Source of the DNA: Actinoplanes octamycinicus
GTDB taxonomy: Bacteria; Actinomycetota; Actinomycetes; Mycobacteriales; Micromonosporaceae
NCBI RefSeq assembly: GCF_014205225.1
Contig: NZ_JACHNB010000001.1
Span: 2,833,501 to 2,897,500 of the forward strand
Reading direction: 5' to 3'
Length of the DNA: 64,000 bases
Shown here piece by piece: positions 39,759-54,183 of the stretch. The stretch's first letter is position 1. Each line of letters opens with the position of its first letter. A program made the position numbers and the translations under genes. The notes beneath the pieces are model-generated. The model had not been told where the DNA came from. It saw nothing but the letters and a program-made list of their open reading frames with translations, and made no database searches.

Positions 39759-42672
<2,914 letters not shown>

Positions 42673-42674
<2 letters not shown>

Positions 42675-42838
42675 CAGAGATGATGTTGGTGAGCACCTCC
42701 CGCCGGGGTCTGACCCTCCGCCTGACTGACTTCGGGTCCTTAACGGGATTTGTCGACCCTGGCCGGGAGGTGCTCATGCACTCATCAGGCGTGGCGTTGT
42801 GACTTCATAGGAGCCTGGCTAGAGGCCCCATCTCTGTC
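42673..42838 (+). ncRNA. Structured non-coding end of the IS110 element, bridge-RNA candidate
   Basis: Two nested perfect inverted repeats lie between secA and the transposase. The outer pair is GACAGAGATG (42673-42682) with CATCTCTGTC (42829-42838); the inner pair is TGAGCACCTCCCG (42690-42702) with 42764-42776. The 61-base inner loop contains a small GGGT/ACCC hairpin. The enclosed length, about 166 bases, and the place just upstream of the transposase fit the bridge RNA of IS110-type elements, which guides target and donor choice. A copy of CATAGGAGC inside it (42806-42814) matches the sequence right after the transposase gene. The assignment as bridge RNA is an inference. Confidence 0.5.
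42806..42814 (+). repeat. Direct repeat CATAGGAGC, left copy
   Basis: Identical to 43976-43984, which begins four bases after the transposase stop. The flanks are also alike (GACTT before this copy, GACATC before the other). Confidence 0.7.
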
Positions 42839-42900
42839 TTGTCCGCGTTGCCCGGCTGGTGCGTGCCGCCCTGCACCCAGTCACGAACGACAGGACGACG

Positions 42901-43971
42901 ATGCCTTCCATTACACCTGATGACACTGTGATCGAGGTCTTCGGTGGCGTCGACACTCACCAGGACACCCACACCGCCGCCGTGATCGACCAGGTCGGCC
43001 GGGTTCTCGGCACGCATGAGTTCCCCGCCACCGCGGCCGGCTACGCCGATCTGCTGGCCTGGATACGCGGGCACGGCCGGCTCAGCCGGGTCGGGGTCGA
43101 GGGCACCGGCGCCTACGGCGCGGGCCTGGCTCGCCTGCTCCGCGACGAGCACGCCGACGTGATCGAGGTCGACCGGCCAGACCGTAAGACCCGCCGCTTC
43201 CAGGGAAAATCCGACCCGATCGACGCGATCCAAGCCGCCCGGGCCGCGCTGGCTGGTGAACGCACCGGCACCCCCAAACAGCGCGACGGGCGCGTCGAAG
43301 CGTTACGTAACCTGCGCGTGGCCCGGCGCAGCGCGGTCGAACAGCGCGCCGACACCCAGCGCCAGATGAAGACCCTGATCGTCACCGCTCCCGACGAGCT
43401 GCGTGCCCGGCTACGCGGCCTGAGCGTCAAACAGCTGGTCGTCACCTGCGCGAACCTGCGCCCCGAGCGGGCTGACGCCGCGACCCCGCTCACCGCCGTC
43501 AAGCTCGCCCTGCGCAGTCTGGCCCGCCGCCATCAGCAGCTGTCCGCCGAGATCACCGACCTCGACGAGCTGCTCGAGCCGGTCGTCGCCGCGATCAACC
43601 CCGGCCTGCTGGCCGCCAACGGTGTCGGCGCCGAGATCGCCGGGCAGTTGCTGGTCAGTGCCGGGGAGAACCACGACCGGCTCGCCTCCGAGGCGGCGTT
43701 CGCCATGCTCTGCGGCGTTGCACCGATCCCGGCCTCGTCCGGCAAGACGACCCGGCACCGGCTCAACCGTGGCGGCGACCGACAGGCCAACGCCGCCCTC
43801 TACCGCGTCGTGCTCTGCCGCCTGCGCTGGGATCCCCGCACCCGCGACTACATGCAACGACGCACCAAGGAAGGCATGTCGAAGAAAGAAATCATTCGAT
43901 GCCTTAAGCGATATGTCGCCCGCGAGCTCTACCAACTCATCAGAATGAACGATCTTGAACTCGCCGCTTGA
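42901..43971 (+). CDS. IS110-family transposase (DEDD recombinase)
   Basis: A 356-residue site-specific recombinase. The N-terminal RuvC-like domain starts with GGVDTHQDTHTAAVID (first Asp, residue 18), then VGVEGTGAYGAGLARLL and KSDPIDAIQAARAAL (later acidic residues). The C-terminal Transposase_20 domain has LLAANGVGAEIAGQLLVSAG, FAMLCGVAPIPASSGKTTRH, with the likely catalytic serine, and NRGGDRQANAALYRVVLCRL. No stop or frameshift interrupts it, so it is probably active. ATG at 42901 is used. The 62 bases before it follow the structured RNA candidate. Confidence 0.93.
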   Translation: MPSITPDDTVIEVFGGVDTHQDTHTAAVIDQVGRVLGTHEFPATAAGYADLLAWIRGHGRLSRVGVEGTGAYGAGLARLLRDEHADVIEVDRPDRKTRRFQGKSDPIDAIQAARAALAGERTGTPKQRDGRVEALRNLRVARRSAVEQRADTQRQMKTLIVTAPDELRARLRGLSVKQLVVTCANLRPERADAATPLTAVKLALRSLARRHQQLSAEITDLDELLEPVVAAINPGLLAANGVGAEIAGQLLVSAGENHDRLASEAAFAMLCGVAPIPASSGKTTRHRLNRGGDRQANAALYRVVLCRLRWDPRTRDYMQRRTKEGMSKKEIIRCLKRYVARELYQLIRMNDLELAA

Positions 43972-43975
43972 CATC

Positions 43976-43984
43976 CATAGGAGC
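43976..43984 (+). repeat. Direct repeat CATAGGAGC, right copy
   Basis: Starts four bases after the transposase stop; pairs with the copy at 42806-42814. It probably marks the right end of the element. Confidence 0.7.
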
Positions 43985-44002
43985 ATCCACCCGCACCATC
44001 CC

Positions 44003-44172
44003 GACGCCGCCCGGCCCGGACCACCTCGGTCCGCGCCGGGCGGCGCTCGTTTCCACCCCGGGCGAGGCCCGTTTCCGCCCCGCGCGGGGCTCGTTTCCCC
44101 CGGGCGCGAACCAAATCGACGTCGCCCGGCCCGGACCACCTCGGTGCACGCCGGGCCGCGCTTGTTTCCGCC
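44003..44172. repeat. Imperfect 52-bp direct repeat, two copies
   Basis: Copies at about 44003-44054 and 44118-44172 share GCCCGGCCCGGACCACCTCG and the following bases, ending in CTTGTTTCC or CTCGTTTCC. CCCGGACCACCT also occurs in the 33-bp repeat inside the next gene. The 524 bp between the IS and that gene hold this repeat and the next one and no supported gene. Confidence 0.65.
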
Positions 44173-44344
44173 CAGGGAGCGCGCCAACTCGCCCCGCTCT
44201 GCCGTCGCCGCGTCGGGCCTGACCGCGCCGGGCCTGACCGGGCCGCGCCGCGAACCGGTCGTGGCGTCGGCGCGTGGTGGAACCCAGGACGGCCACCGCC
44301 TCCACTGCTCAGTGGACGCCCCGGGGTATGCCCTGCTGCCCTTC

Positions 44345-44489
44345 TCCGTGCCGCGCGGCGTGGACGAGCCGTGCGGCGTGGCACGGATGAGTGGCGCCGC
44401 GTGGCGTGATGAGTGGTGCCGCGTGGCGTGATGAGCCGTGCCGCGCGGCCTGGATGAGCCGTGCCGCGCGGCGTGGATGAGTCGCGCGG
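44345..44489. repeat. About 22-bp tandem repeat next to the Rv3235-like stop
   Basis: Six or seven imperfect copies of GATGAGCCGTGCCGCGCGGC followed by GTG, with unit length near 20-22 bp, ending at the stop of the minus-strand gene. No gene is seen across it. Confidence 0.65.
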
Positions 44490-44495
44490 CGGGGC

Positions 44496-45407
44496 TCAGA
44501 TGAGACGGAGGGTGGTGGCGCACCACTCGTCGTCGTGCAGCTCCAAGCGGAGCGCCATGGCCCAGGTCCGCTCCCCGGTGACCAGGGCGACCGCGGCCTC
44601 GACCGCCCCGCGCCGCGGCTCGCAGAGGTTGACCCGGAGCACCCCGACCGGGGACGGCCGCTGGGCTCGCCGGTCACCGGGCCGCCGGGCCCGCCGCAAC
44701 TGGGCGACCCGCCGGGCGCCGGCCAGACCCTGCGCCACCACCCCGGCCGCCTCGGCCGGCAACGACAGCCCGCGCAGGTGGGTCGCCGGCCGGTAGCCGT
44801 TCAGCACCTCGACACAGAGGTGCACGAACCGCTTCACCGCCAGCTTCGCGTCCCCGGAAGGCCCGGCCACCACCGGCGCCGCCGCACCCCGGACCGCTGG
44901 ACCGATCGATACCTCCGCACCCCCGGCCACCTGGCCGTTCGGCGTCGCGCCGGCCCGGACCACCTGACCGCTCGGCGTCGCGCCGACCCGGACCGCCTGA
45001 CCGCTCGGCGTCGCGCCGACCCGGACCGCCTGACCGCTCGGCGCCGCGCCAGGCCGGACCACCTGACCGTTCGGCGCCGCGCCCGCTCGGACCGCTGGAT
45101 CGCTCGGCGCCGCGTCGGCCCGGACCGCGGGAGCGCCCGGAACCGCCGCGGTCGGGACCACCTGACCGCTCGGTGCCGCGTCGGCCGGGGCCGACGGATC
45201 GGCTGGTGGGAACGCTGGGCTGGGCGGTGGGCCGGAAGGGGCCCGCTGGATCGGGCGCGGCCACTCCAGGGCCGGCTGCCGCGCGGACGACCACGCCGGC
45301 GACGTCATCTCGTCGTCGAACGGAGGGTCGTACCGAAGCACCGGGCGCAGGCGAACCGCCGGCCGCGACCCGGCGGACGCAACCTGGACCACCGATCGCA
45401 TCTCCAC
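44496..45407 (-). CDS. Rv3235 family protein with 11-residue repeats
   Basis: A 303-residue protein. The C-terminal ~115 residues match the actinobacterial Rv3235 family: KLAVKRFVHLCVEVLNGYRP, then HLRGLSLPAEAAGV and GAVEAAVALVTGERTWAMAL, ending DDEWCATTLRLI. Function is unknown, but the gene stays near secA across the phylum. The middle of the protein is a run of 11-residue repeats (GATPSGQAVRV-type), encoded by 33-bp units, and the N-terminal part is Pro-rich. GTG at 45407 is chosen because AAGGA lies six bases upstream; the ATG two codons later has its purine-rich sequence too close. Confidence 0.8.
   Translation of the reverse strand: MEMRSVVQVASAGSRPAVRLRPVLRYDPPFDDEMTSPAWSSARQPALEWPRPIQRAPSGPPPSPAFPPADPSAPADAAPSGQVVPTAAVPGAPAVRADAAPSDPAVRAGAAPNGQVVRPGAAPSGQAVRVGATPSGQAVRVGATPSGQVVRAGATPNGQVAGGAEVSIGPAVRGAAAPVVAGPSGDAKLAVKRFVHLCVEVLNGYRPATHLRGLSLPAEAAGVVAQGLAGARRVAQLRRARRPGDRRAQRPSPVGVLRVNLCEPRRGAVEAAVALVTGERTWAMALRLELHDDEWCATTLRLI
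44895..45170 (-). repeat. 33-bp in-frame repeat in the Rv3235-like gene
   Basis: Seven or eight units; the most regular two, near 44958-45023, are nearly identical. Each unit encodes 11 residues with an APSGQ or ATPSGQ core and a VR pair. The unit begins CGGACC on the plus strand and shares CCCGGACCACCT with intergenic DNA at 44.0-44.2 kb. Confidence 0.8.
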
Positions 45408-53796: not shown

Positions 53797-54175
53797 GGGG
53801 GTGACTGGTTTCGACTTCGTACGTGGAGACAGGGGAAGCGAGCCGAGGAAGCCGACGTCGTCTCGAGAATCGGTCGTCGGAAACTTATAAGCGCCAACGA
53901 AAAGTTTGACGCTGACCAGTACGCTCTCGCCGCCTGAGGCAAGTAGCGTGGTCTGTCGGTCTGGGAGCGCCTCCGTCCCAGCTGCCGGCATCAGCTAGGA
54001 GGCTGGCCAATCGGTCCCGGTCGCGGGGACCGTGCGGCGAGATCAATCAGCGACTGGGCCCGTCGTCCGAACTTGCTCACGTGAGTCGGAGGGCCGAGTA
54101 GGGACATAGTGAGCTGCGCTCGGAGAAGCCCTGACAAAACAACGAAGGACCCGGGTTCGATTCCCGGCACCTCCA
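53797..54175 (+). ncRNA. ssrA: Transfer-messenger RNA (tmRNA)
   Basis: The 5' end GGGGGTGACTGGTTTCGAC pairs with the 3' acceptor strand CACCTCC (54168-54174), leaving A at 54175 as discriminator. The T-arm CCGGGTTCGATTCCCGG is perfect. The tag frame starts with GCC at 53893 and reads ANEKFDADQYALAA, with TGA at 53935-53937; the LAA end marks tagged proteins for proteolysis. CCA is not encoded (ACGG follows) and must be added after transcription. With SmpB it rescues stalled ribosomes. Length is 379 bases, usual for actinobacteria. Confidence 0.96.
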
Positions 54176-54183
54176 CGGCATTG

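Follow-up and report, generated by a model that had tools for sequence, protein, structure and literature searches.

An IS110-group element behind secA, its very probable bridge RNA, and target guides that often end in a stop codon

The window, by which we mean the whole stretch of 64,000 nucleotides that was analyzed, carries an intact IS110-group element directly behind the stop codon of secA, which raises the question of how the element came to lie at this exact spot and whether an RNA of its own led it there. The initial annotation had proposed a guide (bridge) RNA in the non-coding end beside the transposase, pointing to two nested perfect inverted repeats and a nine-base copy, all of which we recovered at exactly the coordinates given. 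The outer repeat spans 10 bp (GACAGAGATG, 42673 to 42682, and CATCTCTGTC, 42829 to 42838), the inner one 13 bp (TGAGCACCTCCCG, 42690 to 42702, and CGGGAGGTGCTCA, 42764 to 42776), and the 9-mer CATAGGAGC is present at 42806 to 42814 and again at 43976 to 43984, 3' of the transposase stop codon (43969 to 43971). Because copies and flanks match the guides and the stems covary, we conclude that positions 42690 to 42845 of the forward strand almost certainly encode the bridge RNA of this element; the ends are approximate, the start being derived from a predicted -10 box and the 3' end placed only roughly.

The neighboring protein is the intact DEDD transposase that had been annotated. It comprises 356 amino acids (42901 to 43971, forward strand; 42901 was chosen as the start, and an upstream GTG at 42859 is possible) and matches both Pfam domains (PF01548, E 3.3e-25; PF02371, E 4.9e-15), with the C-terminal Transposase_20 domain present. 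Its best sequence match in the PDB is the IS621 transposase, in an alignment that spans the acidic motifs, which we take to be the catalytic residues. With the start at 42901, the non-coding flanks inside the element measure 225 bases before the transposase and 16 after it. The accessible text of Durrant et al. (2024, PMC11208160) describes IS110-group bridge RNAs as lying in the left end, with the same guide order, and predicts them in 85.7% of IS110s. As IS621 is described there, the window element resembles it in having, at its left end, an RNA that precedes a DEDD transposase and places the target loop before the donor loop, and in left guides that equal the top strand, right guides that complement it and covariation of guide and target; the two transposases are, moreover, related by sequence.

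Where the element begins and ends was established from three copies in its own genome, from congeners, and from empty sites in Phytohabitans flavus. Three full copies are present in this genome (10.28 Mb; placed by its congeners in the genus group Actinoplanes/Paractinoplanes), the two besides that of the window being practically identical to it (1314 and 1317 of 1336 bases at 100%). All three stand behind GCCGCCTGA and share their letters from 42675 onward, so that the left end is at 42675 and not downstream of 42806, where the initial annotation had said that it would tell against the RNA being part of the element. At the right end the copies agree through GGAGCAT-C and then part, with one exception in a congener (L009, GGAGGAT-C). 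In P. flavus, all five listed copies of that species have their target in a repeat (AGGGTGAGGCCGCGGGAGC...) for which the genome gives 462 pattern matches. None of the first 30 repeats examined is occupied; 28 continue without an insert as ...C-(A/G)(T/C)CGCGG(T/C)AG, and the other two diverge. At occupied sites the left junction is GGA-C-AGAGATG, and the right junction is CATAGGAGCAT-C-ATCGCGG in four of the five (L082 has one more ATC). Comparison of occupied with unoccupied sites thus indicates that the element ends in CATAGGAGCAT, that the C is shared, and that no target-site duplication is made, which for the window itself we infer from its right flank and from the secA loci. Our first placement of the right end, directly after CATAGGAGC, was abandoned when the empty sites moved it to CATAGGAGCAT with the core C; a candidate target built on that misplaced end, CGCCTGACATC, was discarded with it, and its two own-genome matches at gene-like stops were not counted.

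By these boundaries the element occupies 42676 to 43987 on the forward strand, about 1312 bp counting one core base. The core C stands at 42675 on the left and at 43987 on the right, and the target resumes at 43988. It is the sole base that the target and both junctions share, and no other base recurs at every junction; the second position is A on the left and varies on the right. The secA reading frame (39759 to 42674) is left intact, its TGA (42672 to 42674) forming the last bases of the left target. Two relatives (L088 and L103) have T in place of C both in the guide and as the left core base (GTGA-T), which suggests, from sequence, that guide and core base can change in concert; a third (L091) has T in the guide and C in the flank. 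Directly 3' of the element, GC-rich imperfect direct repeats and hairpins occur in 43992 to 44500.

Relatives of the element are numerous in Actinomycetota: a scan of reference genomes returned 121, of which 80 were kept. Four copies (L040 near 2019, oriented; L014; L053; L054) are truncated or internally deleted, keeping the left end and lacking most or all of the transposase, and are either remnants or passengers moved in trans. In two others (L081, 511 to 680; L090, near 960 to 1130) a gap of about 1.8 and 1.4 kb, respectively, containing other open frames, separates the bridge RNA from the matched transposase downstream of it, through a nested insertion or as part of a longer element.

The covariance folding that had been proposed for the left part of the element bears out an RNA. 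Positions 42675 to 42843, a stretch that takes in the outer repeat, fold with z = -4.6, and none of 200 shuffles does as well. In an alignment of 38 sequences, including that of the window, the consensus structure retains 96.2% of its pair cells, compared with 36.5 to 45.7% when partners are slid by one to three columns, a comparison that favors the consensus, which was drawn from the same alignment. Double-sided changes occur in 21 of the 42 pairs (mean of shuffles 13.2; 0/500 reach this number), and 15 of these 21 pairs sit in the 16-pair stem (helix 3) that holds the inner repeat. We therefore read the 13-bp repeat, whose 5' arm (42690 to 42702) pairs with its 3' arm (42764 to 42776), as a covarying RNA stem, as the alignment attests; it encloses the target loop, and the donor loop follows. 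At gathering scores Rfam has no match at the bridge-RNA region. Its sole gathering match in the window is a tmRNA gene (RF00023) at 53797 to 54178.

What ties this RNA to the place of insertion is a target guide that the initial annotation omitted: CCGCCTGAC, at 42718 to 42726, matches the secA stop region, being identical to the left flank plus the core base. To see whether this agreement is general, we set the left flank against the ten letters that TGACYC and TGAC enclose in the target loop. From 72 elements parsed among reference-genome relatives and congeners, 63 were kept; six were dropped since the left end was not located (L020, L021, L118, L122, L123, and L125) and three as contig duplicates (L056, L059, and L066). 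Eight further elements have the donor-guide anchor and an unreadable target guide, and loci without that anchor (e.g., the Arthrobacter-type L106, L108 to L110, and L131) were left out of the counts. Across nine positions (eight plus the core), guide and left flank agree fully at 39 of the 63 sites, in eight positions at 21, and in seven at 3, a comparison that is independent of the likeness by which ends were located. For 32 of the 33 distinct left guides (the flank of one representative is cut), 270 positions match the guide's own flank, whereas permutation gives a mean of 168 and a maximum of 200 (0/20,000). Without their last four letters the guides still match at 144 positions (permutation mean, 70.8; maximum, 94). 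Guides ending in CCACCAC, GGCGGAC, CTTAAC, GAATGAC, or CTGGC each find that ending in their own flank.

The right target guide (approximately 42742 to 42747, forward strand) complements the core C and the bases of the right target that follow. The first base behind the core matches in 19 of 20 distinct guides and at 42 of 50 sites, the second in 17 of 20 and at 36 of 50; summed over six positions there are 66 matches against 36.5 expected by permutation (0/20,000). Later bases match in some elements only, up to the six behind the core in L011, and the window's own copies have just one or two. The AT before the core is fixed in RNA and element alike and so provides no evidence for guide pairing. 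The comparison of loops with junctions and empty target sites that had been suggested thus came out in favor of guides that match both ends and flanks. It appears, from these sequences, that the target guide has changed many times among relatives and that insertion sites have changed along with it.

Many of these addresses include a stop codon. A stop codon plus the core base closes 23 of the 33 distinct guides, while the five preceding bases vary; these 23 are related by descent and do not represent 23 independent events. At 77 sites, a set enlarged for this count only by fourteen partial copies read by hand, TGA or TAA stands directly before the core in 52, several of them copies from single genomes or with guides related by descent, and 25 have no stop there. 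We applied a strict gene-end test that relies on frame and composition, not annotation (at least 60 open codons; third-position GC at least 0.85 and the highest of the three frames), and 28 of the 52 sites pass; 24 fail, one of them (L008) for lack of flank. When both flanks are considered, 50 insertion sites comprise 20 gene ends, 2 that look interior, and 28 that are neither, with 13 more not assessable. Upstream frames were also compared with Pfam, for 20 of the 34 listed, chosen by hand with long ones first: 18 have a match, 17 of them above the cut-off and six reaching within 12 residues of the stop, and the matches include ClpP, a DNA polymerase A domain, a histidine kinase, and an AMP-binding C domain ending close to the stop.

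How this pattern arose is evenly poised. One explanation, which could prove right or wrong with equal ease, is that an IS110 lineage across Actinomycetota addresses translation stops by way of its bridge RNA, the drifting bases before the stop fitting common last codons, so that landing is harmless and the address is under selection. The other, to which we grant a little less than an even chance, accepts the bridge RNA and attributes the stops to survivorship: the element would enter at any guide-like site, and copies within genes would be lost. Selection against gene disruption could indeed enrich stops with the guide playing no role, and the own copies, all three at stops, are too few to separate guide from selection. 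Survivorship would also accord with the strict test on a 400-kb sample of the own genome, in which just 85 of 918 CTGAC sites pass, as opposed to 28 of the 52 occupied stop-trinucleotide sites; longer portions of the address pass at 7 of 20 (CGCCTGAC) and 3 of 8 (CCGCCTGAC) sites. However, the guide itself already leads to stops. Sixteen of the first 30 listed of the 196 CCGCCTGACC sites in the own genome are gene-like stops (8 are interior and 6 neither), from which we estimate that in this genome the guide alone leads to gene ends about half the time. The recurrence of stop plus core base in most distinct guides, despite the varied bases before it, likewise speaks for an address in the RNA, tempered by shared descent.

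The donor loop contains the counterpart of this arrangement for the element's own ends. The left donor guide CATAGGAGC (42806 to 42814, forward strand) is a copy of the right end, where the left donor sequence, CATAGGAGC plus AT, forms the terminus (43976 to 43986). The right donor guide CATCTCTG (42829 to 42836) is the complement of the left end, where the right donor sequence CAGAGATG (42675 to 42682) pairs with it. Of the two readings offered earlier for the nine-base copy, that of a guide holds, as it is the left donor guide and lies inside the RNA in relatives too; that of an element boundary falls, since the junction is fixed elsewhere. Each end was found by its resemblance to a donor guide, the left end to the right guide and the right end to the left guide, so comparisons of donor guides with ends placed in this way lean towards agreement. 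The 9-mer at the right end, located in this manner in 51 of the 63 kept elements (in 12 it was not located), equals that of the RNA in 34 and differs by at most one mismatch in 49. When its position is instead fixed relative to the preceding TTGAC, 33 of 48 elements have a 9-mer identical to the RNA copy, and 44 have one with no more than one mismatch. The right donor guide changes with the left end: in the alignment of 38 sequences, columns 4 and 188 pair as UA in 25 and as AU in 13.

The outer repeat, offered initially as the companion of the inner one, mainly represents the right donor guide set against the left end, that is, a pairing with DNA, as far as the letters tell; its GA (42673 and 42674) belongs to the TGA of secA, and only the inner repeat stands as an RNA stem. 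The RNA probably begins near 42690, 3' of the outer repeat's left arm, and the complementarity is best read as guide against DNA because that arm would fall outside such a molecule. Were the outer repeat instead a real stem closing the RNA and not a donor guide, which we regard as improbable, its pairing in single-strand folding and its complementarity in nearly all 38 aligned sequences (helices 1 and 2) would be accounted for, but it coincides with the element's left end, the other donor guide likewise copies the other end, and a predicted -10 box inside the repeat would have RNA from a circle promoter begin behind it. That the repeats are nothing but an ordinary secA terminator or a regulatory leader of the transposase, unconnected to target choice, can be dismissed as very improbable: a GC-rich hairpin between secA and the next gene does look like a terminator, but the repeats travel with the element, are absent from 29 of 29 other congeneric secA loci, and have loop letters that follow the flanks, and these last two facts rule out a terminator as the sole explanation.

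Those loci were obtained by searching 60 genomes, which yielded thirty congeneric secA loci, one of them the window itself; bases behind the stop could be read in 14 of the other 29. The initial annotation had said that inverted repeats after secA in strains lacking the element would count against its reading; none of the 29 carries the element's left end or the inner repeat. Near congeners (92% identity) have GCCGCC-TGA-CC (L190), an intact empty target, and GCCGCC-TGA-TC (L191).

A second, antisense IS110-type element interrupts the bridge RNA within its left donor guide in 4 of the 80 relatives (breaks at L064 near 2410, L067 2410, L112 1107, and L096 2360). The intruder in L096 has in its own RNA region an exact nine-base copy of its flank and, by eye, a seven-base complement of the other side, and to judge by these letters its guide seems aimed at the donor loop in the bridge RNA of the first element. 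In L067 there is only a seven-base flank copy, and L064 and L112 have no exact copy of six or more bases. A relative of the intruder occurs at another site in one of the 394 genomes searched (L248).

Taken as a mechanism, the bridge RNA would be made once the ends of the element have met. Joining of the ends in a circle would set a predicted -35 box, TTGACA (43968 to 43973, forward strand, overlapping the transposase stop), 17 nucleotides from a predicted -10 box, GATGAT (42679 to 42684, forward strand, left end), switching on a promoter whose transcript would begin near 42690, where the 13-bp stem has its foot. Of 51 elements, 45 have an exact TTGACA, and in 46 the spacing across the joined ends is 17 nt, a count that accepted GATGAT or one of four look-alikes. 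The RNA would be bound by the DEDD transposase; its donor loop would pair with the joined ends, CATAGGAGC-AT-C-AGAGATG, and its target loop with CCGCCTGA-C-CC. The recombinase would then swap strands at the shared C, and the circle would enter without target duplication, the junction being observed and the chemistry presumed. As CCGCCTGAC is a common gene end in the own genome (…GCC-TGA), the element would tend to insert immediately after a stop and spare the gene.

The address differs from those that we assume for two other elements: we take the target of IS621 to be REP, and the target motif of IS900 presumably lies at the ribosome-binding-site/start region, a gene front, whereas the window element stands at a gene end. 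IS900 of Mycobacterium avium subsp. paratuberculosis is otherwise similar, as an IS110-family element of an actinomycete with a defined motif (CATGNNNNNNTCTCCTT) and no duplication (available text of PMC8141618). IS110-type elements in REP repeats have been reported (PMC1525189), and the Phytohabitans relatives are likewise found in a repeat; the window copies are not in that repeat. The IS621 core is a dinucleotide found in all four pairings (PMC11208160, accessible text), unlike the single C shared by the junctions here, and while the target in the window element's subfamily is often a gene end, the words "stop codon" are absent from that text. The seekRNAs of ISEc21 and IS1111-type elements show natural reprogramming without target duplication (Siddiquee et al. 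2024, PMC11187229, accessible text), and the present system shares with them an RNA from the non-coding region that gives the target and the lack of duplication; a joined-end promoter, described for them, is predicted here. The site of ISEc21, in contrast, lies in IS3-type transposase genes, and the same portion of that article mentions no stop-codon target, "termination codon" occurring once, for the transposase gene. In the IS1111 group there are subterminal inverted repeats of 7 to 17 bp and the RNA is downstream of the transposase; here the RNA is upstream, and by eye CAGAGATG at the left end is not an inverted copy of GGAGCATC at the right end.

A literature search, with most subscription journals outside its reach, did not find a stop-codon target for IS110 elements, nor was one seen in the accessible text of three actinobacterial papers (PMC2516522, PMC12500396, and PMC11946415), in the last of which one IS110 element is inserted into the pyrE promoter region. 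The guide-RNA type itself is already known; what seems new, as far as that search reached, is the stop-codon address as target choice. The 33 distinct left target guides within one subfamily constitute a natural reprogramming series in which insertion sites are matched almost letter for letter, and they provide ready-made high-GC guide/target pairs with which to probe the rules that bridge recombinases obey, for instance how far a one-base core is tolerated. If the stop-codon address is a selected trait, this would be an RNA-guided element that chooses a safe harbor at gene ends, by way of which it would spread at little cost to its host.
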